Shown one piece after another: positions 4,701 through 47,037 of a DNA stretch of 47,105 nt; the stretch's first letter is position 1; each line of letters begins with the position of its first letter. Under the pieces are notes generated by a model that worked only from the letters and a program-made list of their open reading frames with translations, ran no database searches and was not told the origin of the DNA. The stretch lies in contig DASXLG010000288.1 in the NCBI GenBank assembly GCA_036496425.1, forward strand, positions 1-47,105, given 5' to 3'. The translations under genes and the position numbers were made by a program. This DNA is from Terriglobia bacterium (GTDB lineage: Bacteria > Acidobacteriota > Terriglobia > 20CM-2-55-15).

Positions 4701-5407
4701 TGAAGCTCGGAAAGTTTCGCCGAAGCATCCTCGTTTCCAGTGATTGTGCGCCAGGGTTTAAACCACTCTTTGCCGGCACCTAACGATCCGATCCGCGCCT
4801 GAACGCCATCCGAGGCGACCAGCGCAGCGTTGGTTGCGAACAGTTCCGGGATCTGCGCCTGGTATGTCTGAAGCTGCTGGAATGCCGACCAGACGGTGGC
4901 GTTCTCGCCGGCCGCGTTCTTCAACTCGAGTACGGCCAGCGGCAATCCATTGATGAACAAGACGACGTCCGGACGGCGCGTATGCCGGCCATCCGACACG
5001 GTGAACTGATTGACTGCAAGCCAGTCGTTGTTATCCGGAGTGTCGAAATCGATGACGCGCGCCTGCGCCCCGGCAATCGAGCCGCCTTTGCGGCGGTATT
5101 CCACATTGATGCCATCGACAAGCATTCGGTGCACGGCGCGGTTGCGCTCGACGAGAGACGGCGCATCGCTTCGCGTGAGCTTCCGGTAAGCATCTTCGAC
5201 CGCTTCCGGCGGAAGATCCGGATTCAGCCGCGCGAGCGCGCGTCGAAGGCGGCCATCGAGGAGAACATCGCGATACGCCGGATCGGCGCGCTCAGCGCTA
5301 GGCTCACCTGCCGCAATGAGCGGCCCATGGAGCACGGTGTAACCGAGCGATTCCAGCCAGGCAAGGGCGGCCTCTTCGACGACGGATTCCGTAAAGCCGG
5401 CGTTCAC
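1790..5407 (-). CDS. hsdR: Type I restriction enzyme R subunit with an inserted S24 (LexA-like) peptidase domain
   Basis: HsdR is the ATP-driven translocase and nuclease of type I restriction complexes. The 1205 residues run as follows. The N-terminal PD-(D/E)xK nuclease has D147 and E161-x-K163. The Q-tip region (GYHQFHAV) lies at about 276. An inserted domain occupies about 296-460. The helicase motor has Walker A TQGSGKS (K487), DEAH box 588-591, GFTGTP at about 616 and motif [10 protein letters not shown] at 837-844, followed by the C-terminal coupling helices. Usual HsdR length is about 1000-1050, and the excess is the insert. The insert carries an S24 signature [12 protein letters not shown] with Ser360, YTVKRY with Lys405, and an Ala323-Gly324 pair 36 residues before the serine. 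That spacing is close to that of the LexA and UmuD cleavage sites. The start is GTG, overlapping the upstream stop as GTGA. Confidence 0.95.
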
Positions 5408-6561
5408 GCGCCGGCTCCTTCTGCCGAAGCTGTGGAGGCTTCGGTCCCCGCTTCGGCATCAGGCAGTTGCACGCGCAACCACGCCACCAAGCGCTCAGCC
5501 ACGGAGTCCGCTCTTCCAGACACAATTCCAAACTGCACGAGCACACGCTTACAAGCGACCTTCAGTCTTGCTTGGATCGGTTCTCGATCCTTCCAATCCA
5601 ATCCGATGTTTTGTTCTGCGGTTGCCAGAAGCGAATCAATAAGCTGCTTTCCACCTCCATCGCGAAGCGTCGGATCCAGGCCTTCGGCAGTCAAGAACGC
5701 CTCGACGCCGACGCGGACGATCTTGAGTTCGCCCTCATACTGCGGTACCAATTCCGTCACCGGGCCGACTGCAACCGGAATCGCAGGAATCTCAACAGCC
5801 GCTCGAACAGCCGCTTCTTCAGCCTCTTCGTCGGTCTCTACGACTTCTTCAACGGCGCGTTCAGCCGTCTTGAGCAATTCGACGTAAATCGTTCGATCAA
5901 CTCCATAGAGGAGTCTGCTCGGCTCGACACGGATCTCAATGGCTTCTGTCCTCTTCTTTGTGTACACCGAGAAGACCACTACGGGGCGATCGCCATCTTC
6001 GTCAATCCGTACGTCAACGTTCACAGCGCTGTCGATGCGGTCATTGAGATGGGGAAAGTTTTCGTATGGTTCACGCGTCGCAATCAGATCGGGCTGCTTT
6101 CCTTCAAACGCATTCAGGAGTACGCCGACGATCGCATCGCCCGTGTGCAGAAAAGCCCGTGCATGATCGGCCGTCACTGCATCGAGGAAGCCATCCTTAC
6201 CGTGTGCCAGAGGCCCTGTCTCGTTGCGCATATCCGACAGAGCGTCGGCTAATTTGTTAAATCCCGAAAGTATCTTATCTAGTTTGTTAGCTCCCCTGCT
6301 GTTTCGTAAACCCAACGGACTGAGCGCAGAAACGAGCAACTCCGTTGTGGAGGGTGTCGAAGAAGACATCGGCTCTCGAAACTCGCCCATGATCGTCAGG
6401 CAAACGCTCTCAATGAACGATTTGACATGTTCGACCATGCCGTGTCCGTTCCCATCGAAGCACGCCTTCAGCGCCTCGTGACACTTTGCAAGTGTGGGCG
6501 CATCCGGCCATCGTTGCTGCGCCCGCAAGTAGTTTGGCGCGAGCGCGTCGAGATCAGCCAT
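5404..6561 (-). CDS. Abi_C / HEPN-like accessory protein inside the type I RM operon
   Basis: This 385-residue soluble protein sits between hsdS and hsdR, with overlapping stop/start codons on both sides (TGATG and GTGA), so it is co-translated with the RM subunits. Residues 92-125 ([11 protein letters not shown], then [18 protein letters not shown]) resemble the abortive-infection C-terminal (Abi_C) domain, a HEPN-like fold. The R112...H120 pair recalls the HEPN ribonuclease motif, but the gap is 7 residues and not the usual 4-6. Residues 240-255 are very acidic. The C-terminal third is not recognised. A role as an abortive-infection back-up or an accessory RM subunit is inferred from context only. 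Confidence 0.7.
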
Positions 6562-7907
6562 CAGTTACCACCCCCGATGAACCGCTCCGCATTCTCGATC
6601 CGCAACTCGCCTGAAATCAGTTTCGGCAGCAGGGTATCACGTAAGGCTTCCAAGTCGCGGTTCTCAAGCAGGTTTCGAAATCCTCTGTCGAATAGAGGAC
6701 CGGCAATCTGATTCCAAGCCTGAATCAATCGATCGTCTGGTCGTGCAACGAGCAATCGTTTAAGATCGTCAACCGTTACATGGCCGAGCCCAGTGGTTTG
6801 TTTGTTCCGTGCGATCTCTGCGAAGATTGGTTTGAGGAACTTGAGCGTTGAAAGAATAAATGGCCCTTCATTGGGACCGCGTGGCAATACTCGAAAGATG
6901 TGTTGATTGAGCCATGCTGGGCCGTGGGGCCAAACGAACGTGTCAATCGAAGTGTCTGGATTTCCAGACCATGAGAATAGAATATCGCCGGTGCCTATTC
7001 GGAACTTCTCAGGCATGTCCACGTTAGAAAACCTAGTTTGCGATGTTACGCCGGCTTTCAGTTCAGCAATCTTGATGATCGGGAGCCCTTTCCGGTCACT
7101 TTTGGGCTGGAATGTTGCATATGCAGCGCCATTTACATAGGTCGCAATGTCATAGACCGGAGTGTGTTGCCAACCCTTAGGAATCTCTCCAAGCGCAGAC
7201 TGTTCAAAGGAATCCGGGAAGAGCTCCGCGAGATGCTGAGGCAATTCGGGGTCGCGGCCTTCAGCCTTAGTGCGGACGGGCGCGAAGTCCACGAACCACG
7301 ACTTGAAGAGGACCCGCACCATCGCCTCCAGCGTTTCGTTCATCTGCTGGTTCAGTTGGATCTTGTCGTCAAGCGTGCCGAGGATGTGGGCGATAGCGCC
7401 CTGTTCTTCCATTGGCGGCAGGAGAATCGGAAGTTCGAGTTGTGCCGTGATCCCCAGGTAGGCGCGAGTTGAGCCTTTCTGCCCCCACGTCTCGAAAAGG
7501 CTCTGAAAGTCGTGGCTGTCGAAGTACAGCTTCAGGTATCGATTCGACAATCGCTTGCTGTCCTTCACCCTGTAGTACGTTACTTGAGGGGTAAGGATCA
7601 GGAACGGAACATCCAACTCGCCAACTATCGCCGTTCGCCCCATAGTGGCCTTGTGCGAGATAAGGACGTCACCCCGTAATGCAAATCCCTTTCTCAGTGA
7701 TCGAGCTTGTTGCTCGTCGATGAATGTGCAGTTCTTCGTGTCAACTCGCCCATTCGCTAGATCCGACGCCATGATAAATGGTATGCCGCGGTCGACGAAG
7801 TCAGAGGTCTTCGGATGAATCTCGCCGTGATTCCCGTCCATCGGGCGCTCCAGCACGCCCTCGTCCACAAGCTGCTTGACCGTTGCTGTTCGCCACTCAA
7901 CCGCCAT
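6561..7907 (-). CDS. hsdS: Type I restriction-modification specificity subunit S
   Basis: HsdS recognises the bipartite DNA target through two target-recognition domains joined by conserved helices. Both halves are present: TRD1 at about 1-170, a central conserved stretch around [19 protein letters not shown] and [16 protein letters not shown]2 from about 240, and the C-terminal conserved [13 protein letters not shown]. Its 448 residues are the normal length. I chose ATG 7907 over the in-frame TTG 7913; it lies within the 3' end of hsdM. The stop TGA shares its A with the start of the following Abi-like gene. The TRDs cannot be matched to a target site by eye. Confidence 0.93.
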
Positions 7908-9450
7908 ATCCAAGTTCCTTCAGGTTGGTGGTAATGACCTGATCCAGCTTTGCCCCCTCGGCCTGTTGTTTACGCAGACTCGCACTGAGACGCGTCATCT
8001 TGTCTTCGAACGGCTCGCCATCGTCCTCGGCGGCTTCGGCGCCGATGAAGCGACCGGGGGTGAGTACGTGGCCCTGCTTGCGAATATCCTCGAGCGTCGC
8101 GCGGATGCAGAAGCCGGGTACATCGGCGTACTCGCTGGCGTCCTTGTCGTCACGCCAGGCGTGGTAGGTTCCTGCAATCTTCGCGATGTCGCCGTCGCTC
8201 AGCTCACGGTGAACGCGGTCGACCATCGAGCCCAGTTTGCGTGCGTCGATGAAAAGCGTCTCGCCGCGCCGGTCGCGGAAGCGTCCGTTCTTCTTGTTGC
8301 GCGCGATGAACCACAGGCAAACCGGGATCTGTGTCGAGTAGAAGAGCTGGCCCGGCAGAGCGACCATGCAGTCCACAAGATCCGCCTCGATGATCGCCTT
8401 GCGGATCTCGCCCTCGCCCGATTGGTTAGATGACATCGAGCCGTTGGCGAGCACGAACCCGGCGAGTCCGGCCGGGGCCAGGTGATAAATGAAGTGCTGT
8501 ACCCACGCGTAGTTGGCATTTCCCGCGGGCGGCACACCATAGACCCAGCGTTTATCGTCTTTTAAAAGCTCCCCGCGCCAGTCGCTATCGTTGAACGGCG
8601 GATTCGCGAGGACGTAGTCGGCTTTGAGGTCGGCGTGTTTGTCGTTATGAAAGGTATCGCCATGGGCAATCTGTGCATCGATGCCGCGAATGGCGAGATT
8701 CATCTTGGCTAGCCGCCAGGTGGTGTAGTTAGACTCCTGACCGTAGATGGAAATGTCGCCAAGTTTGCCGCTATGCGCTTCGATAAACTTCTCGCTGCTG
8801 ACAAACATCCCTCCCGAACCGCAGCAGGGATCATAAACACGTCCTTTATAGGGCGCGAGCACCTCGACCAGCACGCGCACCACCCGCGACGGTGTATAGA
8901 ATTGTCCGCCACTCTTCCCTTCGGCGCTGGCGAAGCGGGCAAGAAAGTACTCGTAAACGCGGCCGAGCGTGTCCTTCGCCCGATCGGCGGTGCTGCCGAG
9001 CGCGATGTCACTTACCAGATTGATGATCTGACCGAGGCGCTGCTTGTCGAGACCGGTTCGGCCGAAATCCTTGGGCAGCACACCCTTGAGCGACGGGTTA
9101 TCCCGCTCGATTGCAGTCATGGCGTCATCGACCGTAGTGCCGATCGTCGGCTGCGGCGCGTTCGCCTTCAAATGCTCCCAGCGCGCTTCTTTCGGCACCC
9201 AAAAGATGCTGGACGCGCGATATTCGTCACGATCTTCAGGATCGGCGCCTTCGGCTTTCTGCGCTTCAAGCTCGGCGTGTTTCGACTCAAACGCATCGGA
9301 TATGTACTTCAGGAAGATCAGCCCAAGCACGACGTGTTTGTATTCCGCCGCATCCATATTGTTGCGGAGTGCGTCGGCCGCCGCCCAGAGTTTGGCCTCA
9401 AAACCCAGGTTCGCGGTTGTGTCGTTGTTCTTCGTCGGTGTTCGTGCCAT
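7897..9450 (-). CDS. hsdM: Type I restriction-modification DNA methyltransferase subunit M
   Basis: HsdM methylates adenine at the sites chosen by HsdS and is also part of the restriction complex. The 517-residue product has the HsdM N-terminal helical domain (residues 10-140, with [20 protein letters not shown]). The SAM motif I is [12 protein letters not shown] and the catalytic motif IV is [10 protein letters not shown] (NPPF, adenine-N6). It is the first gene of a four-gene minus-strand operon in which every junction overlaps. A good -10 sequence lies about 40 bases upstream. Confidence 0.95.
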
Positions 9451-19739: not shown

Positions 19740-20108
19740 CGGGAAATCGCTTTCTCCTGTCAGCAAATGGCAAGTGCTGATGTGGGAACGCCTCCGCACA
19801 TCAGCTGACGACACTTTCCCGTCAGCAGTTGGCAAATGCTGATGTGCGGAGCCGATTTCCCGCCAGCAGTTGGCAACTGCTGATGGGAAATTGGCTTCAG
19901 CTGATGTGGGAACGCCTCCGCACATCAGCTGACGGCATTTTCCCGCCAGCAGTTGGCAAATGCTGATGTGCGGAGCCGATCTCCCGTCAGCAGTTGTCAA
20001 CTGCTGATGAGAAATTGGCTTCAGCTGATGTGGGAACGCCTCCGCACATCAGCTGACGGTAATTTCCCGCCAGCAGTTGGCAAATGCTGATGTGCGGAGC
20101 CGATCTCC
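19740..20108. repeat. Tandem array of about three 124-bp units built from hairpins
   Basis: The segment CTGATGTGGGAACGCCTCCG recurs at 19777, 19901 and 20025, exactly 124 bp apart. Each unit holds a perfect 12-bp-arm hairpin (TCAGCTGATGTG / CACATCAGCTGA, loop 12), a 9-bp-arm hairpin (CAGCAGTTG-G-CAACTGCTG) and a looser CAGCA...TGCTG pair. The heptamer GCTGATG/CATCAGC thus occurs many times in alternating orientation. No protein frame is convincing. It lies directly before the first sigma54 promoter module. It could be a protein-binding array, a structured RNA, or a mobile repeat family. Confidence 0.85.
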
Positions 20109-20134: not shown

Positions 20135-20190
20135 GTCTACTCCGTCTACTGAAATCTACTCCAATCTACTGAAGTCTACGCAGAGTAGAC
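20135..20190 (+). promoter_or_regulatory. Upstream activator repeat, copy 1 (predicted enhancer-binding site)
   Basis: Five steps of about 10 bp, each beginning (G/A)TCTACT, end in the hairpin GTCTAC-N5-GTAGAC at 20174-20190. An almost identical block lies at 22931-22987. The last hairpin starts 49 bp before an IHF-like site and 92 bp before the -24 element, the distance expected for a sigma54 enhancer. Confidence 0.7.
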
Positions 20191-20222: not shown

Positions 20223-20235
20223 TAACTCGTTGATA
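20223..20235 (-). promoter_or_regulatory. IHF-like binding site, copy 1
   Basis: On the minus strand this reads TATCAACGAGTTA, a full match to the IHF consensus WATCAANNNNTTR. It sits between the upstream repeat and the -24/-12 promoter, where IHF bends DNA in sigma54 promoters. Confidence 0.6.
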
Positions 20236-20264: not shown

Positions 20265-20280
20265 CGGCAGCGCGATTGCA
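20265..20280 (+). promoter_or_regulatory. Sigma54 (-24/-12) promoter of the FN3 gene
   Basis: CGGCAGCGCGATTGCA matches the consensus TGGCACG-N4-TTGCW with GG and GC separated by exactly 10 bases. Transcription would begin near 20291, leaving a 5' leader of about 90 nt that contains a small TTCCAGC/GCTGGAA hairpin. Confidence 0.6.
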
Positions 20281-20381: not shown

Positions 20382-21035
20382 ATGTCAGTAAGTAAGGCGA
20401 AAGTGGTCACGATCCGGCCACTTGAAAGTTACAACAAAATGTCCGACGCGGATATTGTTCAGCGTGGGACAGCAGTTGTGACCGGTCTGACCGGGAATTC
20501 GAATTTTACGAGTTTGCCGGTCGATCTGGCGGCGCTGACGGCGGCTATCAGCAGTCTCTCGGCACTCATTGCGGAGGCTCTCGATGGCGGCAAGAAGGCG
20601 CTCGCTCAGAAAAACAAGCAACGGGAAACCGTCGTAAAAATGCTGAGGCTGTTGGGCCGTTATGTTGAAGTCAATTGCGATGGAGACATGGCGAAGTTCA
20701 CGTCCAGCGGATTTACGCCGGCTTCGACGACCAAAGTTCCAGCGGCGCCGTTGCCGTTACCGGTCATCCAAAGCGTCTACCAGGGCGCCATCAGTGGAGA
20801 ACTCGTAATTCAGATCCAGTCTATTTCGAAGGCTCTGAGCTATGAAATCCATTACGGTGTCCAGGTCAACGGCGGGCCGCCGGCCTCGGTGACGAGCAAG
20901 GTAGTCGCCAAGACCAGACCGCCCATTGGATTCCAGGGCCTGATGCCGGGCACTGTCTACGCGTTTCAAGTTCGCGCGCAAGGCAAGCTCGGTTTCACGG
21001 ACTGGACCGACTGGACGACGTGTATGGTCACATAA
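20382..21035 (+). CDS. Fibronectin type III domain protein of unknown function
   Basis: ATG 20382 follows a strong AAAGGAGG ribosome-binding site and defines a 217-residue protein; the longer open frame from 20244 would include the promoter. Residues 1-110 are helical (LTAAISSLSALIAEALDGGKKAL) and not recognised. Residues about 120-217 form a single FN3-like beta domain (SYEIHYGVQVNG, then LMPGTVYAFQVRAQGKLG). There is no signal peptide or membrane segment. It is the first target of a sigma54-type promoter module and is followed by a terminator, so it is transcribed alone. Its role may be structural or adhesive; this is not shown by the sequence. Confidence 0.7.
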   Translation: MSVSKAKVVTIRPLESYNKMSDADIVQRGTAVVTGLTGNSNFTSLPVDLAALTAAISSLSALIAEALDGGKKALAQKNKQRETVVKMLRLLGRYVEVNCDGDMAKFTSSGFTPASTTKVPAAPLPLPVIQSVYQGAISGELVIQIQSISKALSYEIHYGVQVNGGPPASVTSKVVAKTRPPIGFQGLMPGTVYAFQVRAQGKLGFTDWTDWTTCMVT

Positions 21036-21102: not shown

Positions 21103-22929
21103 ATGAAACCCCGGCTTATCGCGCTTTCCGGCCCGCACAAAGGGCTGGTGATCCCGCTTACTGAAATTCCCTTCAGTGTCGGCCGCGAGGCCGATAACTC
21201 GTTGGTTCTGGACGACGAACTGGTCTCGGGATATCACTTCAAAACATTCCTGAACGACGGTAGACCCTACCTCCGCGACGGCAATACGCGGAATGGCACG
21301 TGGATCAACGGGACCGCGCGGAGTGAGCGGGATCTCGAAGACGGCGACCGCATCAAATGCGGAAGCACGACCTTCCTCTATCTCGAATCCGAAAGAGACC
21401 CGAAGGCGATTCCTGTCCTTATCGATGACGAAGCCGACCGCAACCGCCAGCTCGAGACGCTGCGTGCCGACTACACGGTCCGCGACGAGGCGGCGATTCA
21501 TTACAGAGGACAATCCGAGGTCCTGATGTACATGGCCGGGTTGCTGAATGAGATCGAGGACCCGGCGCAACTTCAGGTGCAGCTGCTCGATCGTACGTTC
21601 GAGATTATTCCTGCATTACGGGGCGCCATCGTGGTCAATGGCAGGCGGGTCAGTCCGGATCCGGCAGACTGGGCTTCGCGCATTTTCCGTGAGCGCGGTT
21701 TCGACGGCGAGGTCGAGTTCAAGCTCAGCAGCAAAATTCTGCATCAGGTTTATGCCGAAAAATGCGCTGTCATCAGCAACGATATCAAGCCCGTGATCTG
21801 TGCTCCATTGCTCGTGGCCGGCGCCGTCCGCGGCGTGATCTATCTGGAAGGAGCGTCCACCCGCAATGGCTTCGAGCCGGAAGACCTGCGTGTGCTTAAG
21901 GGCGTGGCGGCATTCCTCATCACCTCGATCAGGCTGGCCGATAAAATCGAGTCGATTCGCGATGCCCGCGACCTTCTCCAGGAAAAAGAAGAACCGATCC
22001 CCGACCTGGTCGGCCGCAGCCCGTCAATGCTGGGCGTCCGCAAGAACATCAAGGAGGTCGCTGCCGTCGACGCCCCGGTTCTGATCCAGGGCGAGACCGG
22101 AACGGGAAAGGAAATCATTGCCCACAGCATCCACGACGCCAGTCCACGGAAGGGCCATCCTTTTATAGCCATCAACTGCGCAGCTATTCCGGAGTCGCTG
22201 CTGGAAAGCGAGCTTTTCGGCCATGCCAAGGGTTCCTTCACCGGAGCGGCAATGGCGCGAAAAGGAAAGTTCAGAATGGCTCATGAAGGGACCATATTCC
22301 TCGACGAGATCGGCGACATGAGCTCCGGCGCGCAAACGCGCCTGCTGCGAGTCCTCCAAGAGGGCCGCTTCTCGGCAATCGGTGAGGACAAGGAAACCGA
22401 GATCGACGTGCGCGTGATCGCTGCGACCCATGTGAATCTCAAGCAAGCCGTTCAGGAAAAAAGGTTCCGGGAGGATCTCTTCTACCGCCTGAACGTGCTG
22501 TCGATCGAAGTGCCACCGCTGCGCGAGCGGGCCGAAGACATCGCTCTGCTTTCGGGGCATTTTCTCACGAAGTATTCGCATTGGCGTGAAGTCGCGGATA
22601 TCTCGCCGCAAGCCATGGAAGTGCTCCAGACGCACAAATGGCCGGGAAACGTCCGGGAACTGGAAAATGTCATCCAGCATGCGATCGTCCGCGGAAAAGA
22701 GGATACGATCCAGCCGGCGGATCTTCCTCCATATCTCATTTCCGGAACAGCCTCCGTCAGGGCCGACGCCCCCGCGGTATTCAAATTCAAAGGCCGCGCA
22801 GCGGCGAAGAAGGTTCTCAAGGCGGATTTGCTCGCGTACATCGAAGCCAACAACGCCACGGTGGAACAAGCCGCCGCGCATTTCCACATCAGCCGCGCCT
22901 GGGCCTACCGGCTCCTCGCCGAGGGATAG
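21103..22929 (+). CDS. Sigma54-dependent enhancer-binding protein (FHA-GAF-AAA+-HTH)
   Basis: The 608-residue regulator begins with an FHA domain (about 20-95: [16 protein letters not shown], then NGTWING), followed by a GAF-like sensory domain at about 150-285. The sigma54 AAA+ domain spans about 300-535, with Walker A GETGTGKE (K336) and the sigma54-contacting loop GSFTGA at 377-382. A Fis-type HTH ends the protein. It can open -24/-12 promoters. The FHA domain suggests control by a phosphothreonine partner; a kinase/phosphatase/FHA operon lies at 27094-31364. Two matching sigma54 promoter modules flank the gene, and both are its likely targets. Confidence 0.95.
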
Positions 22930-22930
22930 A

Positions 22931-22987
22931 GTCTACTCCGATCTACTGAAATCTACTCCAGTCTACTGAAGTCTACGCAGAGTAGAC
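22931..22987 (+). promoter_or_regulatory. Upstream activator repeat, copy 2
   Basis: This near-identical copy of the 20135-20190 block begins right after the stop codon of the enhancer-binding-protein gene. It has five (G/A)TCTAC steps at 10-bp spacing and ends in the hairpin GTCTAC-N5-GTAGAC at 22971-22987, 49 bp before the second IHF-like site. Confidence 0.7.
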
Positions 22988-23019: not shown

Positions 23020-23032
23020 TAACTCGCTGATA
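23020..23032 (-). promoter_or_regulatory. IHF-like binding site, copy 2
   Basis: On the minus strand this reads TATCAGCGAGTTA, one mismatch from the IHF consensus. Its spacing to the upstream hairpin (49 bp) and to the -24 element (43 bp) equals that of copy 1. Confidence 0.5.
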
Positions 23033-23061
23033 AATCACGTTCGGTTATTGCGCGCCGGTTT

Positions 23062-23077
23062 GGGCCCCTGCCTGCCT
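23062..23077 (+). promoter_or_regulatory. Sigma54 (-24/-12) promoter of the small-protein operon
   Basis: TGGGCCCCTGCCTGCC has the GG-N10-GC core, weaker than copy 1 elsewhere. The identical 43-bp spacing from the IHF-like site supports it. Transcription would start near 23088, just before the AAAGGAG of the first small gene. Confidence 0.5.
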
Positions 23078-23106
23078 TATCAGACCGCATGAAAGGAGTA
23101 CGCAAC

Positions 23107-23289
23107 ATGACGATAGCGATGACAGTGACACAAGTGTCGGAATTGGCCGATGTCTCCAAGGCGCTGCTCGACCTGATGGAGGGCCTTGAAGACGCCGTCC
23201 AGCGATTGCTTCGAATCGTAGGCGATCTTGTCGGTCCGGCTTCACCGGATCCGAAAGACAACCTGAGAAAGGAGAAACCATGGACATAG
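23107..23289 (+). CDS. Small amphipathic protein, first gene of a sigma54-type operon
   Basis: This 60-residue protein begins at ATG 23107 after GAAAGGAG with good spacing. It is mostly one amphipathic helix (SKALLDLMEGLEDAVQRLL) with a charged tail and no cysteine or membrane segment. The stop lies 10 bases inside the next gene, so translation is coupled. I do not recognise the family. It depends on the predicted -24/-12 promoter and should be expressed with its partner. Confidence 0.65.
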   Translation: MTIAMTVTQVSELADVSKALLDLMEGLEDAVQRLLRIVGDLVGPASPDPKDNLRKEKPWT

Positions 23290-23459
23290 CAGAGCAACTC
23301 ATGGAGGTCCTCAGCAGGCTTGGCCGCATCGAAGGCCAGCTCATCGGCATCAACAAAGTGTCGGAGCGGGTCTCACGGCTGGAGATGTGGCAGGCCTGGC
23401 TGAAGGGCGGACTGTGCGCGGTTCTAGGCGCGTTCGGTTACCTGTTCAGAAAAGTGTAG
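23280..23459 (+). CDS. Holin/XhlA-like small membrane protein
   Basis: ATG 23280 follows AAAGGAG and overlaps the upstream gene by 10 bases. The 59-residue product has an N-terminal coiled coil (LMEVLSRLGRIEGQL, then VSERVSRLE), a WQAWLKGG turn and a C-terminal membrane helix ending GYLFRKV. This is the pattern of XhlA and related phage or bacteriocin holin accessory proteins. It could permeabilise or anchor to the membrane. Under sigma54 control with an unrelated small partner, it may be a release or signalling peptide and not a phage remnant. Confidence 0.65.
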   Translation: MDIAEQLMEVLSRLGRIEGQLIGINKVSERVSRLEMWQAWLKGGLCAVLGAFGYLFRKV

Positions 23460-23626
23460 AGGTTCAAAGAAAGGAGAACACGTTTATGTCGGGTTCCATG
23501 CGCGGATGACGCGAATGGTCGTCCGCGCGGTCCGTAGCTGGCTTCTCTTTGGCGCGATTCCGGCGATAGGGATGCCTGCGGCGATCGCGAAAGCCTGCCC
23601 GCTTCGCGCTGCCGGGCGCGACGAAT

Positions 23627-23759
23627 ATTCCCCGCCTTTCCAAGGCGGGGTGGCTGCGCCATTAATAAAATGGTCCCGTTCCTTAGCGGCGCAGACGGGG
23701 CGGTTCGTAACTAACCGCCCCGGCGCTTCGCGCCACCCCGCCTTGGAAAGGCGGGGAAT
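23627..23759. mobile_element. 133-bp MITE-like element with 28-bp perfect terminal inverted repeats
   Basis: The ends 23627-23654 and 23732-23759 are perfect inverted copies, and each is itself a palindrome (CCCCGCCTTTCCAAGGCGGGG type). The interior holds a further 9-bp hairpin (GGGGCGGTT / AACCGCCCC). There is no open frame. This is the architecture of non-autonomous MITE or REP-doublet elements. I see no clear target duplication. Confidence 0.75.
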
Positions 23760-23768
23760 GGGGGCGGC

Positions 23769-23839
23769 GCGGGCTTTTAGCCCGCGTTCAACCACCAAAA
23801 CAATTCTTGTTTGAATTTGAACGCGGGCTAAAAGCCCGC
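23769..23839. repeat. 71-bp REP-like inverted repeat
   Basis: Perfect 23-bp arms (23769-23791 and 23817-23839) each contain the palindrome GCGGGCTTTTAGCCCGC. A related GGGCTAAAGCCC lies at 309-320, so the motif is dispersed in this genome. It directly abuts the MITE-like element. Confidence 0.75.
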
Positions 23840-24161: not shown

Positions 24162-24191
24162 CCACCGTGGGTTCGAATCCCGCCCTCTCCG
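24162..24191 (+). other. tRNA-Ser 3'-end fragment, probable attachment-site scar
   Basis: The 30 bases form the end of a serine tRNA: a T arm with stem GTGGG/CCCGC around TTCGAAT, then the acceptor strand CCTCTCC with G as discriminator. No 5' half (expected GGAGAGG) precedes it, so this is not a functional tRNA. Isolated tRNA 3' ends are the usual att footprint of integrases. It marks the right edge of the accessory region, 11 bases before the Uma2 gene end. Confidence 0.7.
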
Positions 24192-24853: not shown

Positions 24854-24903
24854 GGCTGGAGATTTTGCATCAGAATGCATCAACGTTCCGTATTAAGGGA
24901 AAG

Positions 24904-25434
24904 ATGGCCATCAAGGACGGCGATTTCGAATCGTTGGTGCGTGAGCATAAAGCGATGCTCTACCGGATTGCCTTCAATTTCTTCCTGAACGCCCGGATTG
25001 CCGAAGAGATCGTCCAGGATGTGTTCCTTCAGTGTTTCGAGAATCTGAAAAACATTCAGTCTCCCGAACACTTGAAAGCATGGTTGAGGCGGGCGGCGAC
25101 CCATCGGTGTATCGACCTCGTACGCAGCGGCAGGGCACGGAAGGAATTGCCGTTGGATGAACTGCCGGACGTTCCGGACCAGATACCCGAATCCGATCCG
25201 TTGCTTGCGGAGCGCCTGCGCCGCCTTGTCGCCTCACTCCCGGAGAAACAACGGATGATTTTGATCCTCCGATACGCCGAAGATATGGATTCGGACGAAA
25301 TCGGCGAGTTGCTCGATATGCCCGCACCGACGGTTCGGAGTCATTTGCAGCGCGCGCTTGCCATCCTTCGCGAAAAAGCGCCGCGCGCCCTTGGAGAAGA
25401 GATCTATGGACCCACTCGAAAACAACCTTCGTGA
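24904..25434 (+). CDS. ECF RNA polymerase sigma factor
   Basis: The 176-residue protein has sigma region 2 (FESLVREHKAMLYRIAFNF, then EEIVQDVFLQCFENL) and region 4 (LPEKQRMILILRYAEDMDS, then an HTH ending in VRSHLQRALAILREK). ATG 24904 follows AAGGGAAAG. The gene overlaps the next one by 29 bases, so it is co-translated with a FecR-type membrane protein that probably holds it inactive. This is a typical cell-surface signalling pair. Confidence 0.92.
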   Translation: MAIKDGDFESLVREHKAMLYRIAFNFFLNARIAEEIVQDVFLQCFENLKNIQSPEHLKAWLRRAATHRCIDLVRSGRARKELPLDELPDVPDQIPESDPLLAERLRRLVASLPEKQRMILILRYAEDMDSDEIGELLDMPAPTVRSHLQRALAILREKAPRALGEEIYGPTRKQPS

Positions 25435-26911
25435 CGCCCTCCGCGAGCCGGCACCACCGGCAGATCTCGCCGGAAAAGTGATGGCGCGTATCGAGAGTGC
25501 GAAGCGGAGACGCCGATATGCCTTCCTTGCCATTGCAGCCGCAGCCTTATTGCTTATTGTTGCTTCACTTGGCGTTTTCGAGAGGGCGGTGACCGGCACA
25601 CAAGCCGTGGTTCTCGAAACCGGAGAAAAGATCCAGGACGGTGAAACGGTTCGTTCTGCAGTCCGCGCCACATTGGCGCTCGCAGACGGCTCACGCATCG
25701 AAATGCGCTCAAATTCGGAGATGGCGCTCCGGACTGCCGCTGAAGGCAGGCTGATCCAGTTGAATGCCGGCAGCATCATCGTTACCGCCGCCAGACAGCA
25801 CAACGGACATTTGTATGTGCGGACCAAAGATGTCACCGTCTCGGTTGTCGGCACCGTCTTTCTGGTAAATGCTGAAGAGCAAGGCTCGCGCGTCGCGGTC
25901 ATTCAGGGCGAGGTTCAGATACTGCAAGGCGCCAAGGAGAAAACACTTCATTCCGGTGAGCAGGTAGCGACAAGTTCGTCGATGCCGAGCGTGCCGGTCT
26001 CGGAGGAAATATCATGGAGCCAAAACGCCAGCGCGCATCTGGCCTTGTTACAACAGAACACAACCCCGCCTTCCGAGGCGCCAAACGCTGTGCCGCCGCC
26101 GCTGCTGTATTTTGCCGCCGTCTCGATAAAACCAATGCCCTCCAATCCTCCCGGGCAAGGAGAGAAAGTGGGTTTTGCCTGTCATGGCGCCGACGGAACC
26201 CGACGGGCGCCTTTTGGGCTGGCAGATCCGATCAGCGCGCCACGAGGCCGATGTCTGGGCAATTACGTCACTTTGCCGAGCTTGATTGCATTCGCGTATA
26301 ACACTGTGCCGCAATTTGTCGCGGGCGGGCCCGACTGGATGAACAGTCTTTTTGGGCGCACCACGATACCCTCAAAACCTGCCGCAGTCTTTCAGGTCGA
26401 AGCAGAAGCCGAGGATTCTTCCACGGCAACAACCGGTCAATTGCGGCAGATGCTTCAGACGATGTTGGCGGATCGCTTCAAACTGAAGTTCCATCGAGAT
26501 ACTCATGAGGTCCCCGGATATGCGCTGCTTGTCGCTAAGGGTGGACCGAAGTTGAAAGAGATTGCGGACGAAGACTCACCGTTTGTGTGTTGCCTTGGGC
26601 GGCCGACATACAAAGGAAGATCTACGGTGGAACAACTTGCACAGTTTCTGACTCAATTGATCTTTATTCGCAATGGCCCCATTGTCGACAAAACAGGCCT
26701 CGCAGGAATCTATGATTACGAATTCACTCTGCGCTCGACCGGTGGAGGACAGCGGGGACCTGCCGGAGAGCCTCGCGGTGGCGGACCGCCAAGCGGTGTC
26801 GATGCATTATCCGACGCACTCGAAGACCAACTTGGCCTTCGCTTGCAAGCTCAGAAAGTCTCAGTCGATGTCCTGGTTATCGATGAAGCTGAAAAGCCAT
26901 CTGAGAATTAG
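25406..26911 (+). CDS. FecR-domain membrane protein fused to a TIGR03435 domain
   Basis: ATG 25406 follows GGAGAAGAG and gives 501 residues. Order: a short cytoplasmic anti-sigma-like segment (1-31), one membrane helix (about 34-55), a FecR domain (about 60-195: ETGEKIQDGETVRS, then VRTKDVTVSVVGTVFLV), a Pro-rich linker, and a TIGR03435 domain (about 240-501) ending VLVIDEAEKPSEN. FecR proteins relay periplasmic signals to ECF sigma factors; here the outer part is the Acidobacteriota-specific TIGR03435 domain, presumably the sensor. It is the intact relative of the fragments at 391-738 and 1310-1343. Confidence 0.9.
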   Translation: MDPLENNLRDALREPAPPADLAGKVMARIESAKRRRRYAFLAIAAAALLLIVASLGVFERAVTGTQAVVLETGEKIQDGETVRSAVRATLALADGSRIEMRSNSEMALRTAAEGRLIQLNAGSIIVTAARQHNGHLYVRTKDVTVSVVGTVFLVNAEEQGSRVAVIQGEVQILQGAKEKTLHSGEQVATSSSMPSVPVSEEISWSQNASAHLALLQQNTTPPSEAPNAVPPPLLYFAAVSIKPMPSNPPGQGEKVGFACHGADGTRRAPFGLADPISAPRGRCLGNYVTLPSLIAFAYNTVPQFVAGGPDWMNSLFGRTTIPSKPAAVFQVEAEAEDSSTATTGQLRQMLQTMLADRFKLKFHRDTHEVPGYALLVAKGGPKLKEIADEDSPFVCCLGRPTYKGRSTVEQLAQFLTQLIFIRNGPIVDKTGLAGIYDYEFTLRSTGGGQRGPAGEPRGGGPPSGVDALSDALEDQLGLRLQAQKVSVDVLVIDEAEKPSEN

Positions 26912-27093
26912 TGGATTCCCATTAATAACGCATGGCCTGGCTGTCATGGGTATTCCACTTTGGCTGTCATTTCGTTGGGCCGGCGAGGGCGGATCCGCTG
27001 CCCAGGCCAGCGTTACCGCCGGACCCGTCCAAACAATTTCCTTCAACAATTGCTTTACTATTTCCCGACGTTTTCATAGCCTGTCCCCGCGCT

Positions 27094-29802
27094 ATGAAGA
27101 AACTCTTCACTTCGGACCTATTTTTTGGAATTGTCCTGACCCTTTTCGTCGCCGGCTCGTACCTGATCGGAAGTACTTTCCTCGAATCAGTCGAGTTGAA
27201 GTTTTATGACGTGCGCGCGAAATTCCGGCAGGAATCCGGCCAACCCAATGATGTGGCAATCATCGCCATCGACGACAACAGCCTGACCCAACTGGGCCGT
27301 TGGCCGTGGCCGCGGTCGCGGATCGCAGCGATGCTGGACAAAGTGGGTTCGTACGGTCCCAAAGTCATTGGATTGAACATCCTGTTTTCGGAGCCGGACC
27401 ATAACCCGGGAATCGCAGCGCTGGATCAACTGGCTACACGGTACAAAGAACTTGCCGAGTCGAAGGTCGTCATCGAGAACGATCCGGCCAGCAAAAAGCC
27501 GCTGGCGCCGGGTGCGCCTTCCGCCATTCTGGAGGCGATCGATACGGCAAAGCAAAGCCTGGATGAGGACGCGAAGCTGGCTGCGTCTTTAAAGGGTAAG
27601 AAGGTCGTCCTTCCGATGTTTTTCGATCTCTCTGCCGGGCTTGGGGGCAAACCGGATCCCTTGCCGCCGGAAATCGCCCGCTCGGCGATGACAATTCTTC
27701 CGTCCGGCAGCCCGAACTATGTAGTCTCTGAAAAAGCGAGTTACCCTGTGGCGCTGTTTATGGCCGATGCGGTTGGGATCGGCCACATAAACGTCGTGCC
27801 CGACAGAGATGGAACAGTGCGCCGCGTCCCCGTGTCCGTCGCCTATGGCGATGCAATGTATCCGGCATATGCGCTGGAACTGCTGAGGGTTTACCTGGGC
27901 CTCGATTCGAAGGACCTGAAAATCGCGCAGGATGACAAAGTCATCCTGGGAGGGATCGAAGCGCCCCTCGATGAAACCGGCTTGATGAACATCACCTTCC
28001 GTGGGCCGGAAAGGACGTTTCCCTACTATTCGTTCTTCGATGTTCTCAACGATAAAGTGAATCCCGACCAGTTCAAGGATCGCATCGTCCTGCTGGGTTC
28101 GACGGCTATCGGACTGGATTCGCGCTGGGTGACGCCTACCGGGACGAATTTCAACAGCGTTGAGTTGACCGCGAATATTATCGACGACCTTCTCACCAAG
28201 AAGTTTCTGGTTCGTCCATCCTGGGCGCGGGCAGCGGAACTGCTTTTGATTCTGTTTGTAGGAATTTTTGTCAGCCTGCTCCTTCCACGCATGAAAGCCG
28301 CTATGGGCGCAATCGTCTCCCTGGTGTTTCTGGCGGCTCTGCTGGTGACCGGCACATGGATGTTTGTTTCGCAGAATTATTGGCTCAAGGTGACATATCC
28401 TTCGATTCTGCTTGCGGCCGGATACACTGTCATCGTTTCCAAACGTTTCCTCACAACCGAGAAACGCAAGGAACTGGTCGAAGCCTCACAAATCGAAACC
28501 AACAAAATGCTCGGACTTTCTTTTCAGGGCCAGGGCATGCTGGATCTCGCGTTCGAGAAGTTCAGAACCCTCCCGCTGGACGAAGCTGTTGCCGATCTGC
28601 TTTACAACCTGAGCCTCGATTTCGAAAGGAAGCGACAGTACAACAAGGCTGTCGCTGTCTATGATTACATCGCGACAAAATTCAAAGGCTACAAAGACAT
28701 CACGACACGGCTGGAGAATTTGAAGAAAGCTGCCGATGGCGCTGTTTTCGGCTCGTCGGTGGGCCGCGGTAAAGACTCGACGATCATGACCGAGAGCGGA
28801 GGCATGAAGCCGACACTCGGACGGTACGAGGTCGAAAAGGAACTGGGCCGAGGAGCGATGGGAATTGTTTATCTTGGAAGGGATCCCAAGATCAACCGGC
28901 AGGTGGCCATTAAAACGATGATGCTGGAGCTGGAAGGAACGGCCGAGCAGGTGAAGGAACTGAAGAGCCGGTTCTTCCGCGAGGCTGAATCCGCCGGAAA
29001 CCTGAATCATCCCAATATCGTCCGCATTTTCGATGCCGGCGAGGAGAACGAAATCGCCTACATCGCGATGGAGTTGCTCGAGGGACACGATCTCAAACGC
29101 TATTGCGACAAAGCTTCGTTGCTTCCGCTGGAAACAGTGCTCGACTTCTGCGCCAAGACCGCCGACGGTCTGGACTACGCGCATCAGGCCGGCGTGATTC
29201 ATCGCGACATCAAGCCCGCGAACATCATGCTGTTAAAAGATGGAACGCTGCGTACTACCGATTTCGGAATCGCACGAATGGCCGCTTCCTCGAAAACCGC
29301 CACCGGAACGGTTATGGGAACGCCCTCGTACATGAGCCCGGAACAGGTTTCCGGTAAGAAAGTGGACGGCCGGTCGGATCTGTGGTCGCTCGGCGTCATG
29401 TTGTACGAACTCAGCACCGGCGAGAAACCTTTCAAAGGTGGCGACGCCATCGGAACTCTGCTGTTCCAGATTGCGAATGATACGCCGACGCCACCAGCCA
29501 CTTACCGCCCGGATTTACCCGCTGATGTCATCGCTGTCATTGATAAATGCCTGCAAAAAGACCCGGATGCCCGGTATCAGAGGGGCGCCGACCTGGCCGC
29601 CGATCTGCGCCGTGTCATCGAACGGTTGAAATCAGGCACGCCGGCTCCGGTGGTCAACGCCGCACCAGCCGCAGCCGTGGCAGCTGCAGCTGCCACGGCT
29701 GCGGCCGACAAGACCGCAGTTCTGGGCAATCCGCTCAAACCAGACGGACCAGATGTGGCCGGTGATAGGACTATACATATTGATCAGAATGAGAAATCGT
29801 GA
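27094..29802 (+). CDS. CHASE2-domain serine/threonine protein kinase
   Basis: I place the start at ATG 27094 (MKKLFTSD), because a membrane helix follows directly; the open frame extends 54 codons further upstream. Order in the 902 residues: TM helix (about 8-28), extracytoplasmic CHASE2 sensor (about 35-365), three TM helices (about 370-460), a TPR-like linker (about 480-555), then a Hanks-type kinase from about 576. The kinase is intact: Lys607 in VAIK, catalytic HRDIKPAN (Asp705) and DFG (Asp723). The tail is Ala-rich. Such kinases sense envelope signals. The phosphatase gene downstream overlaps by 4 bases. Confidence 0.95.
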   Translation: MKKLFTSDLFFGIVLTLFVAGSYLIGSTFLESVELKFYDVRAKFRQESGQPNDVAIIAIDDNSLTQLGRWPWPRSRIAAMLDKVGSYGPKVIGLNILFSEPDHNPGIAALDQLATRYKELAESKVVIENDPASKKPLAPGAPSAILEAIDTAKQSLDEDAKLAASLKGKKVVLPMFFDLSAGLGGKPDPLPPEIARSAMTILPSGSPNYVVSEKASYPVALFMADAVGIGHINVVPDRDGTVRRVPVSVAYGDAMYPAYALELLRVYLGLDSKDLKIAQDDKVILGGIEAPLDETGLMNITFRGPERTFPYYSFFDVLNDKVNPDQFKDRIVLLGSTAIGLDSRWVTPTGTNFNSVELTANIIDDLLTKKFLVRPSWARAAELLLILFVGIFVSLLLPRMKAAMGAIVSLVFLAALLVTGTWMFVSQNYWLKVTYPSILLAAGYTVIVSKRFLTTEKRKELVEASQIETNKMLGLSFQGQGMLDLAFEKFRTLPLDEAVADLLYNLSLDFERKRQYNKAVAVYDYIATKFKGYKDITTRLENLKKAADGAVFGSSVGRGKDSTIMTESGGMKPTLGRYEVEKELGRGAMGIVYLGRDPKINRQVAIKTMMLELEGTAEQVKELKSRFFREAESAGNLNHPNIVRIFDAGEENEIAYIAMELLEGHDLKRYCDKASLLPLETVLDFCAKTADGLDYAHQAGVIHRDIKPANIMLLKDGTLRTTDFGIARMAASSKTATGTVMGTPSYMSPEQVSGKKVDGRSDLWSLGVMLYELSTGEKPFKGGDAIGTLLFQIANDTPTPPATYRPDLPADVIAVIDKCLQKDPDARYQRGADLAADLRRVIERLKSGTPAPVVNAAPAAAVAAAAATAAADKTAVLGNPLKPDGPDVAGDRTIHIDQNEKS

Positions 29803-30626
29803 ACAGGCTGGCAATAAAGATTGCGGGGCTGACCGATCCGGGAAAGTCCCGCTCAAACAATGAAGACGCCGTATGGATCGATCCGCAGGCTAACCTGCTG
29901 ATTGTGGCTGACGGAATGGGCGGCCATCAGGCAGGAGAAGTCGCCAGCGGATTGGCTATAAAAACGATCCCGGACCACCTTCAACAGCTGGTCCACAAAG
30001 GAACAGCAGGCGAGGTTGCGGATGAGCGGCTTTCCGGGGAAACCAATCGGTTGGGATTCTGTTTCAAAATCGCCAACCAGATGATTTTCGAGGCGGCCAA
30101 GCGCTATCCGGAGGACCACGGCATGGGTACGACCTGCACAGCGGCTCTGATCACCGGCGGCCGCCTCAGTCTTGCGCATGTCGGCGACAGCCGTTGTTAT
30201 CTGATTCGCCGCGGCGAGATCGAGCAACTGACGGAAGATCATTCGCTGGTTATGGAACAGGTACGACACGGCCTCCTCTCGAAAGACGATGAGGCCGTCA
30301 AAAGAGGACAGAATATTCTGACGCGTTCTCTCGGGACCAGCGCCGAAGTCAAAATCGACATGCAGGAATATCCGCTTTATCCTGGCGATTGCCTTCTGCT
30401 CTGCTCCGACGGACTCGAAAAAGAGCTGACGGACGATCAGATATTGGAAATTGTGATGAAAACATCAGGGCCTGAAGATTGCGCCAGGAATCTGATTGAA
30501 GCGGCGAACGCCGCTGGTGGACGAGACAACATTACGGTTGCGGTTGCTCAAATCGAAAAAGCAAGTTTGAGCGAGTCCATCCTGTCATTTATGAAAACCT
30601 CATTTGGTTGGAAGGCGCCGTCATGA
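29799..30626 (+). CDS. PP2C family serine/threonine phosphatase
   Basis: The 275-residue phosphatase starts at GTG 29799, overlapping the kinase stop (GTGA). PP2C motifs are present in order: SRSNNEDA, ADGMGGHQAGE, GDSRCYLIR, LLCSDGLEKELTDD and GGRDNITV, with the metal-binding aspartates intact. It should reverse the action of the adjacent kinase, including on FHA-bound partners. It is cytoplasmic, with no signal peptide. Confidence 0.95.
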   Translation: MNRLAIKIAGLTDPGKSRSNNEDAVWIDPQANLLIVADGMGGHQAGEVASGLAIKTIPDHLQQLVHKGTAGEVADERLSGETNRLGFCFKIANQMIFEAAKRYPEDHGMGTTCTAALITGGRLSLAHVGDSRCYLIRRGEIEQLTEDHSLVMEQVRHGLLSKDDEAVKRGQNILTRSLGTSAEVKIDMQEYPLYPGDCLLLCSDGLEKELTDDQILEIVMKTSGPEDCARNLIEAANAAGGRDNITVAVAQIEKASLSESILSFMKTSFGWKAPS

Positions 30627-30656
30627 GCATTCATTCACCCCTGGAGGTCCCTCGGA

Positions 30657-31364
30657 ATGGCTAAGTTCCTGCTCCAATTCGAAGGCGCAGTTCTTAAGGA
30701 AATCCCCGCCAAGGACGAAATCACTGTCGGCCGGAAGCCGGACAACGATGTCGTCATCGACAATCCTGCAGTAAGCAGCCACCATTGCCGGATAAAACTG
30801 GTCGGCGATACCTTCTTCGTCGAGGACCTCAATTCGACAAACGGCGTTTTCGTCAACGCAAAGAAAATCGTGAAGTCCGGACTCCAGAACAATGACGTCA
30901 TCGGTATCGCAAAGCACGCGCTGAAATTCCTCGATGACAAACAAGAGGAGAGCCCGACCGTCGCAATACCCCCGAAAAAGGCAGCTCAGGACGCCACCAT
31001 CATGATCGCTCCTGAGAGACAGCAGGAGCTTGCGGCAGCTTCCACTACCGCCGCTCAGAAAAAGCCGGCGATGGTTCGCGTTACAAAAGGAGTGGTCGAT
31101 CAACTCGACTACGAACTTAAAACGCGTTCAACTTACCTGGGCAAATCCGACCGCGTTCAGATCAAGATTAAAGGCAAAGGCCTGTTCGGATCGGCGCCGG
31201 AAAGCGCGGCGATGATCGTGAACCAGGATGGCTACTTTCTGGTGCCGATCGTGGCCGGTTACGTCAAGTTGAACGGGAAAGCACTACAGGAAAAACAGCC
31301 GCTCGCCGATGGCGACATCATCGAGGCCGGGGGCACGACTTTAAAATTCGAAGTCCAGAACTGA
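30657..31364 (+). CDS. FHA domain protein
   Basis: The 235-residue protein has an N-terminal FHA domain (about 18-92) with the phosphothreonine-binding residues in VGRKPDNDVVID, SSHHCRI and NSTNGVFVN. A second, degenerate FHA-like beta domain is at about 140-235 (LGKSDRVQIKIKG, then VKLNGKALQEKQPLADGD). FHA proteins read phosphothreonine marks made by kinases such as the one two genes upstream. The three genes form a kinase-phosphatase-reader operon. Confidence 0.92.
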   Translation: MAKFLLQFEGAVLKEIPAKDEITVGRKPDNDVVIDNPAVSSHHCRIKLVGDTFFVEDLNSTNGVFVNAKKIVKSGLQNNDVIGIAKHALKFLDDKQEESPTVAIPPKKAAQDATIMIAPERQQELAAASTTAAQKKPAMVRVTKGVVDQLDYELKTRSTYLGKSDRVQIKIKGKGLFGSAPESAAMIVNQDGYFLVPIVAGYVKLNGKALQEKQPLADGDIIEAGGTTLKFEVQN

Positions 31365-45856: not shown

Positions 45857-45954
45857 TTGCTGTGCCGCGAATTTCGACATATATAAAGGTTGGGGATGGT
45901 CGTGGATAACTTTTCGATGTTCGACACTTTTGGACAGAAAGTCGAATAATTAAA

Positions 45955-46635
45955 AGAATGTTTTCAAGATTGGACTAATAATTTGAAGGTGAGTCCCAAA
46001 ATCAGAATATTTAAACGCATCTTTAAACATTGGGTTAATCTTTCCGATCATCAATCCCGTCTTTGCGTCTTTGGATTGATATTTGACTTCTGGGTTTCAA
46101 GTCCCAAAACATTGAATTCATATTTCGAAAATAAGGCTAAAGATTCAGATCTTTAATTACATTCTGCAGGGAATTTTTAAAGATCGCGATCATTGACGCC
46201 TTTTTGAAAAGATGGATTTAAAGTTTCCGATCTTTGACCCAGTGATTCAAAGATTGAATTGATGTTCCTACCTTCACATCCATTCTTTCAAAATCGGGTT
46301 AATGTTGGCGATCTTGGATCGCATCTTTTTAAGATCGGTTTAAAGATGCCCGTTTTTAAAGCCATTTTTGAATTTTGGGCTTAAAGATCGAGATCTTTAA
46401 GCCAGTTTTGAAAAGAGTCGCTTCAAGATTGCAGGTTTGAATTCATGTTTTAAACATGGGGCTAATGATTCGGACTCCTGGTCCCATCTTTTTAAAATGC
46501 GAATGAAGATACCGATCTTTAATCGCATTTTGAAATTTCGCTGCTAAAGATTCTGAGTTCGGATTCATCTTTGAATTTTGTGTTTAAATACTCGAATTTT
46601 GGTTTCCAACTTGCTGTTTTTGAACCGCCAGTGCA
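45955..46635. repeat. Degenerate tandem array of about sixteen ~41-bp units
   Basis: Units start near 46005, 46046, 46108, 46148, 46188, 46229, 46269, 46310, 46351, 46392, 46434, 46473, 46514, 46555 and 46594, spaced 39-42 bp where regular; the left part is less even. The consensus is roughly GATCTTTAA, then CCCATTTTTGAAAAT, then GGGTTTAAAGATTCC. The unit ends are partly self-complementary (GATCTTTAA ... TTAAAGATC). The array is visibly AT-rich against its GC-rich surroundings. The period is not a multiple of three and no open frame looks real. Nothing else is seen in this stretch. Confidence 0.8.
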
Positions 46636-46799
46636 CAATCCGGCCGCATTTCATCCCGTCTCAAAAGCTAACCCATTGATAAATCATGTTTTCGCGAATG
46701 CTTCGAAGCGGCGTACGGAACGAAGCCAACAGCCAAACCTGGTGGCAATTCCGGTGACGACGGACCGTTTTGGCTCCTTGAAAAGCCTGTAAATGTGAA

Positions 46800-46873
46800 T
46801 AGCCCCGAGCAGATTCGAACTGCTGACCTCCGGTTTAGGAAACCGCTGCTCTATCCAGCTGAGCTACGGGGCC
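46800..46873 (-). tRNA. tRNA-Arg (anticodon CCU)
   Basis: On the minus strand the cloverleaf reads acceptor GGCCCCG, D arm GCTC..GAGC, an anticodon loop TTCCTAA with anticodon CCT, T arm AGCAG-TTCGAAT-CTGCT and 3' strand CGGGGCT. The discriminator A is at 46800. The first base pair is a G-U wobble and the base of the anticodon stem has one G-G mismatch. No CCA is encoded. tRNA-Arg(CCU) genes are frequent integration sites. Confidence 0.93.
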
Positions 46874-47037
46874 AAACTATTTAGATACTGTAACTTGAAC
46901 TAAATACCTGATTCCTCAATATGCAAAAAATGCAACAAATATGCAACAGCGTACCGGATAGCGCACTTTTCCCGGCATTGCTCGTTGCATCGTGTTGCAT
47001 GTGCGCCGAGCAAAACCCAGATTTGCGGAACATCGCT

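Follow-up and report, generated by a model that had tools for sequence, protein, structure and literature searches.

The window, i. e. the whole stretch of 47,105 nucleotides that was analysed, carries on its forward strand a gene for an FN3-family protein, a gene for an enhancer-binding protein (EBP) and two small overlapping genes, ORF1 and ORF2, the second of which belongs to a family that we call D (Table 1). Two overlapping genes of 60 and 59 codons with good ribosome-binding sites had originally been predicted, and both are present as described: they share 10 bases, each has the sequence AAAGGAG 5-8 bases ahead of it, and both show in-frame codon usage, with log-odds per codon of 0.25 for ORF1 and 0.31 for ORF2 as judged by the codon usage of this genome's genes (60-codon reference windows have a mean of 0.25, sd 0.11, in the right frame and of -0.41, sd 0.18, in the wrong frame). 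The list of open reading frames also offers an upstream ATG at 23089 for ORF1; the start was set at 23107 because the ribosome-binding site favours this position. ORF2 is 41-50% identical at the protein level to 11 relatives and is thus kept as a protein and no chance reading frame. For ORF1, no relatives were found in the databases, and none beyond itself in 12 genomes. In a second cassette of the same genome, L031, its place is taken by a 132-aa gene with a C-terminal end that resembles ORF1: the ungapped score of 44 was reached by 0 of 1000 shuffles, a test that leaves helical periodicity uncontrolled, and since BLASTP gave no match between the two proteins, it is only this test that shows the likeness. 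As had been predicted, ORF1 is an amphipathic helix, with a moment of up to 2.3, and it has no transmembrane segment.

Table 1. Features of the window around ORF1 and ORF2, in order of position.
Feature	Position	Strand	Remarks
UAS array 1	20135..20190	+	10/20-bp TCTACT... repeats; palindrome GTCTACGCAGAGTAGAC at 20174-20190
IHF-like site 1	20223..20235	+	TAACTCGTTGATA; 42 bases from its start to the -24 box
-24/-12 box, FN3 promoter	20265..20279	+	CGGCAGCGCGATTGC
FN3-family protein	20382..21035	+	217 aa; helical N-terminal domain and one FN3 domain
Enhancer-binding protein (EBP)	21103..22929	+	FHA - GAF-like - sigma54 AAA+ - HTH
UAS array 2	22931..22987	+	palindrome GTCTACGCAGAGTAGAC again at 22971-22987
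IHF-like site 2	23020..23032	+	TAACTCGCTGATA
-24/-12 box, ORF1-ORF2 promoter	23061..23075	+	TGGGCCCCTGCCTGC; weaker -12
ORF1	23107..23289	+	60 aa, amphipathic helix; AAAGGAG at 23092-23098
ORF2 (family D)	23280..23459	+	59 aa; AAAGGAG at 23268-23274
Next-gene stub	23470..23509	+	AAAGGAG at 23470-23476, ATG at 23486, 7 codons, stop at 23507-23509
Inverted repeat 1	23627-23759		perfect, 28-nt arms; REPIN-like
Inverted repeat 2	23769-23839		perfect, 23-nt arms; REPIN-like

The pair had been proposed to be under sigma54 control and tied to an FHA-type regulator. Indeed, the gene between FN3 and ORF1 encodes an EBP with matches to FHA (6.9e-14) and Sigma54_activat (1.9e-71); by eye, it shows the motif GSFTGA and the characteristic FHA residues GR, SxxH and NG. 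FN3 and ORF1 are both preceded by the same promoter layout, in which a UAS array is followed by an IHF-like site and then by a -24/-12 box, and the reverse complement of TAACTCGTTGATA matches the IHF consensus WATCAANNNNTTR. The UAS repeat has seven matches in the window, all of them at the two arrays, as compared to 0.04 expected, and RpoN is encoded in the genome (PF04552, E=1.9e-54). Moreover, the L031 cassette has an FHA regulator that is 39.5% identical to the window EBP, and it repeats the layout twice, with a different palindrome (TTGAACTGGCAGTTCAA). The spacing between the IHF-like site and the -24 box is 42 and 41 bases in the window and 41 and 41 bases at L031, and the composite of an IHF-like core and spaced -24/-12 elements occurs six times in the 6.16-Mb genome, four of these matches being the promoters of the window and of L031. 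The composite scan alone is not significant (4 matches on the + strand vs 1.85 expected), and the argument is therefore carried by the shared UAS and the spacing. The boxes alone are not rare, as scores of at least 15 were found for 21 of 128 control genes; scores of at least 16 before 5 of 31 FN3 genes vs 5 of 128 controls are suggestive only. Judged by this promoter architecture, the predicted sigma54 control of the window pair is well supported.

Related elements were observed at other places. At L103 (G002:C23, positions ~1500-1560), the same IHF-like site and the same spacing to the -24/-12 box (40 by eye) are found together with a third type of UAS palindrome, and the gene that follows belongs to another family and starts with MNPNRVSATLS. 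In the window, positions 45900-46690 hold a 41-bp degenerate array and then a decayed promoter of the L031 type, which has kept an IHF-like site at 46669 but not the -12 element; a minus-strand tRNA-Arg(CCT) lies nearby at 46799-46874, and no family gene follows. A cluster at 24865-31364 looks by eye like an ECF sigma factor, a CHASE2-kinase, a PP2C phosphatase and an FHA protein, and could supply a phosphorylation input, and four large minus-strand open reading frames at 1790-9450 look by eye like a type I restriction-modification set. The cassettes L035 and L040/L092 are adjoined on the other strand by a PspF-like EBP and a polytopic membrane protein; with two of the 13 other cassettes concerned, this may be chance. 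A link of the window EBP to defence was rejected, as the PADLOC matches are RtcR-type AAA+ proteins recognised via the AAA+ part. The literature searched on FHA-type EBPs, on lysis cassettes outside prophages and on FN3 multicopy families held nothing to the point.

Family D is narrowly distributed. With the single ORF2 sequence, tblastn detected five further copies in the window's own genome (G000) at E<0.01 and nine places at E<1e-4 in two other genomes, seven in G004 and two in G001; of the 61 genomes searched, the remaining 58 gave no convincing copy (best E=0.009). A profile search over a sample of 396 genomes of the phylum was positive in one, again the window's own. The three genomes belong to one genus of Acidobacteria gp5, and 15 copies were read: the window, L028-L032 in G000, seven in G004 (L033, L036, L037, two at L038 including L038b, L039 and L040) and two in G001 (L034 and L035). 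It had been envisaged that the pair might not be conserved outside phages; the ORF2 family is kept in bacterial chromosomes.

ORF2 had further been described as XhlA-type, with a coiled coil followed by one transmembrane helix. XhlA proteins (PF10779) are short, with a coiled-coil-like N-terminus and a hydrophobic C-terminus, and D is broadly similar in architecture, its N-terminal half being heptad-like as judged by eye. The membership itself did not hold, because PF10779 was matched by none of 12 D members in Pfam at E<=5; a search of G000 with PF10779 gave three weak matches, none at D loci, and the control was positive in B. subtilis among others. A match to a PHROG holin family is too weak to identify D as a holin (phrog_689, E=0.0073, one of 12 D members, N-terminal half only). 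The transmembrane part of the description is only weakly reflected in the sequence: the C-terminal hydrophobic stretch of ORF2 is short, its best 19-residue Kyte-Doolittle mean is 1.14, and the corresponding maxima over 12 D members range from 0.63 to 1.39, below the line of 1.6, with 15-residue maxima of up to 2.07. Family D is probably membrane-associated; so short and weak a hydrophobic stretch fits a membrane-thinning short helix or no membrane action at all. A short helix that thins the membrane has been argued for BhlA-type holins in the available part of one report (PMC9527704).

In the related loci, D is part of a recurrent cassette. An FN3 gene related to that of the window lies upstream of D in 13 of 14 testable copies (the L030 contig begins inside D, and L036 has no FN3 gene in the 747 bases available), and the predicted tie of the pair to an FN3 protein thus recurs in other genomes. 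D is followed by two genes, E and then G, in 12 of the 15 copies, the exceptions being the window, L038b and L039. Gene E, which is frame-broken in L028 and L038, encodes about 120-205 aa: a membrane segment comes first, followed by a lipobox-like hydrophobic stretch with an invariant cysteine at its end and by a helical domain; its structure model has a pLDDT of 65.9. Short forms of E without the first membrane segment (L031, L033) read as plain lipoproteins, and the same was seen in a phage, L082. Gene G encodes 60-65 aa. The family databases name none of D, E and G. The gene after G varies: it encodes an M15_3 peptidase in L036, L037, L038 and L040 (Pfam, 1e-17 to 1e-19), and three of these four hydrolases were scanned and also match the endolysin family phrog_894 (3e-32 to 3e-36). 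The proteins at L033 (weak endolysin match, 1e-4) and L034 (phrog_30036, a family of unknown function, 5e-17; PG-binding, 0.0046) are unrelated to M15_3 and have weak endolysin features, and L028 has a short broken protein without any match. Reading of the loci revealed no hydrolase directly after G in L030, L031 and L032, the FHA-regulated L031 cassette thus being among those that lack it; L029 and L035 run out at a contig border after G. Phage lysis regions are known to switch the family of their terminal hydrolase while the neighbours stay. The lysis-type context that had been suggested for the pair is therefore found in the other copies, where E, G and endolysin-type hydrolases stand beside D. 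E has no holin family match.

The window copy breaks off after ORF2. The stub of the next gene stands where the other copies carry E, no match to E or G was found in the window, and the window copy therefore consists of just FN3, the regulator and the two small genes. The two inverted repeats follow the break. Farther on, a fragment at 24165-24191 resembles a tRNA 3' end; a tRNA attachment site was rejected here, as an exact second copy is lacking and the nearest copies in the genome differ at two bases. The window copy is probably incomplete, having lost E, G and the hydrolase, and it could thus carry out no more than the first step, unless other copies supplied what is missing. The absence of a lysis gene from the window, where FN3, EBP, ORF1 and ORF2 are kept, would also be expected if the two small proteins were non-membrane coiled-coil or amphipathic adaptors of FN3 or of the regulator that stand beside lysis genes by history, and the marginal hydrophobicity of D as well as the strong amphipathicity of ORF1 without a transmembrane segment would agree with such a role. 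However, E and G follow D in most copies, and the distances of D and E correlate (r=0.49, reached in 40 of 2000 permutations, n=9), so that we regard the adaptor role as improbable.

The genes E and G have relatives in phages. They are adjacent in three soil phage contigs of IMG/VR (L081/L176, L082/L177 and L178; IMGVR_UViG_3300047322_000637, _3300010403_000025 and _3300044801_000258), and in all three an endolysin gene is nearby, encoding a phage lysozyme, an M15_4 peptidase or a glucosaminidase. In genome G026, E and G come after head-tail adaptor and tail-like genes and are therefore part of a prophage. The soil phage lysis regions resemble the cassette in that E and G are neighbours and an endolysin gene is close to them, but differ from it in that no relative of D or FN3 was found in IMG/VR (28 pattern matches for D and 89 for FN3, none confirmed); INPHARED contained neither D (E<=1) nor E. 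The bacterial cassettes sit among ordinary chromosomal genes outside prophages, and no phage structural genes were recognised around them, as judged by eye from the gene calls of 11 cassette contigs. The original prediction had favoured a membrane or release event over a phage remnant. This was half wrong, since the cassette derives from a phage and its copy in the window is truncated. We conclude that the cassette most likely represents a phage lysis module that has moved into host use and been joined to FN3 and D. The main rival explanation is that the cassettes are degraded prophage leftovers without host function, the window being the most decayed one. The phage nature of E and G, the frame-broken or truncated copies (L028, L038, L038b and the window) and the REPIN-like repeats after the break would all be in agreement with decay. 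Leftovers of prophages would not be expected to show the conserved upstream position of FN3, the dedicated EBPs with matching UAS pairs to which two cassettes are wired, or a D gene that occurs in neither phage collection searched, and they should have structural genes beside them. We therefore consider decay unlikely.

Host use raises the question of the cargo. An N-terminal hydrophobic helix is absent from the 10 FN3 proteins and the five hydrolases tested, and they therefore need another way out; in the window FN3 protein, no N-terminal signal helix was seen, and one hydrophobic helix is internal (residues 49-67). Its structure model has a pLDDT of 86.7, with PDB matches covering residues 121-217. 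The family is large, with HMM matches, fragments included, numbering 51 in G000, 26 in G004, 8 in G002, 7 in G003 and 4 in G001, and relatives also occur in Verrucomicrobiota and in one Eremiobacterota record. Most FN3 genes lack a cassette. When 31 FN3 proteins were placed in a tree, with the window protein labelled as solo through its short flank, those with a cassette were scattered over it (8 changes as compared to a shuffled mean of 8.6), and cassettes have therefore often been gained or lost. The FN3-D distances correlate (r=0.47, 21 of 2000 permutations, n=9), the FN3-E distances do not (r=-0.03, n=8). Since FN3 genes are mostly solo and scattered in the tree and FN3 and E are uncorrelated, it is only their position that points to the FN3 proteins as cargo.

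The approximately 700 bases upstream of FN3 genes often hold degenerate repeat arrays, the period of which is 20-21 or 40-42 bases; the repeat sequence differs gene by gene, and the unit often contains a palindrome, as GGAGAAGATCTTCTCC in L040. Autocorrelation exceeded 0.38 at 16 of the 30 FN3 loci with enough upstream sequence as compared to 2 of 130 control genes, both of which are FN3 genes themselves. The loci with upstream arrays are L031, L035, L040, L054, L062, L066-L068, L071, L072, L124, L128, L132, L140, L142 and L149; the window FN3 gene (L125) has a value of 0.347 (z 9.4). They resemble operator arrays with helical phasing, and our literature search found no paper on them. Directly before UAS array 1, the window has a 62/124-bp tandem array at 19755-20108 (TRF score 603) with an internal 21/41-bp period.

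Gene order, gene families, the phage kinship of E and G and the promoter layout are read from the sequences; from these we infer how the cassette might act on the membrane, release FN3 and be switched on. The inner membrane would probably be disturbed or opened by D together with the membrane part at the N-terminus of E. The wall would then be cut by the endolysin, which has no signal, and the E lipoprotein would act on the envelope. The FN3 protein encoded next to these genes, likewise without a signal, could thereby leave the cell, as in a type 10 secretion system (T10SS). In the window and at L031, the FHA-type EBP would drive two sigma54 promoters from upstream sites of its own and would be activated through its FHA domain. 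Of the window's features, it is only this FHA domain that speaks for the phosphorylation trigger that had been suggested. For this reading, i. e. a domesticated phage lysis module organised as an FN3-D-E-G-endolysin cassette for a type 10-like release of the signal-less FN3 protein, we see about an even chance. The same genes would also serve programmed lysis rather than secretion: a fraction of the cells would be killed upon a phosphorylation or stress signal, with FN3 release as a consequence. The FHA domain of the regulator would suit such a signal, and the T10SS of Yersinia entomophaga is lytic according to the part of the report available (PMC10847048), whereas the accessible parts of two reports on the Salmonella T10SS describe a non-lytic system (PMC13284979, PMC10109510). 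Lysis and secretion look alike at the level of sequence, and we deem programmed lysis quite unlikely. Beyond the single locus, it is tempting to speculate that phage lysis modules have become a multi-copy, privately regulated release system for the large FN3 family in the gp5 Acidobacteria: many FN3 genes would have their own helically phased operator array, at some loci an FHA-type EBP would read its private UAS and fire paired sigma54 promoters for the cargo and the release genes, and the window would be a minimal or cut-down version with the switch and the first membrane gene. This wider idea is possible but on the whole doubtful. If it were true, uncultivated soil bacteria would carry many such cassettes under a textbook sigma54 circuit, the inputs of the circuit (FHA, phosphothreonine) could be tested, and the cargo would be an FN3 family of very large size.

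In the accessible parts of the literature, T10SS-like release is described for a few pathogens and clostridia, and the one paper found to mention both type 10 secretion and Acidobacteria, as far as available, describes no such system for that phylum. The clostridial UviA/UviB bacteriocin module resembles the cassette in combining a small holin-like protein, its own transcription factor and an endolysin, as judged from the accessible part of the source (PMC9527704). The module, with its BhlA-family holin, differs in being Gram-positive and in that UviA is a sigma factor; the hydrophobic stretch of D is C-terminal, and a search for sequence kinship was negative. Another related system is the T10SS, exemplified by ChiWXYZ of Serratia, YenLC of Yersinia entomophaga and STM0015-16/ChiA of Salmonella. 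In these systems, a holin, a hydrolase and spanins encoded outside prophages export proteins that lack an N-terminal hydrophobic helix, with lysis in Yersinia (PMC10847048) and with export without lysis claimed for Salmonella (PMC10109510, PMC13284979), according to the available parts of these reports. Phage-type lysis genes outside prophages, a peptidoglycan hydrolase (in part of the cassette copies), a nearby cytoplasmically made cargo (putative for FN3) and a dedicated regulator are features that the T10SS, as covered by the accessible text (PMC10847048, PMC10109510), shares with the acidobacterial cassette. The latter differs in having no recognisable holin family or two-part spanin, an FN3 protein in the place of a chitinase or toxin, two copies under sigma54/EBP control, and many copies per genome with different hydrolases. 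The cassette would thus be of a known, T10SS-like kind, i. e. a phage lysis module re-used for release.
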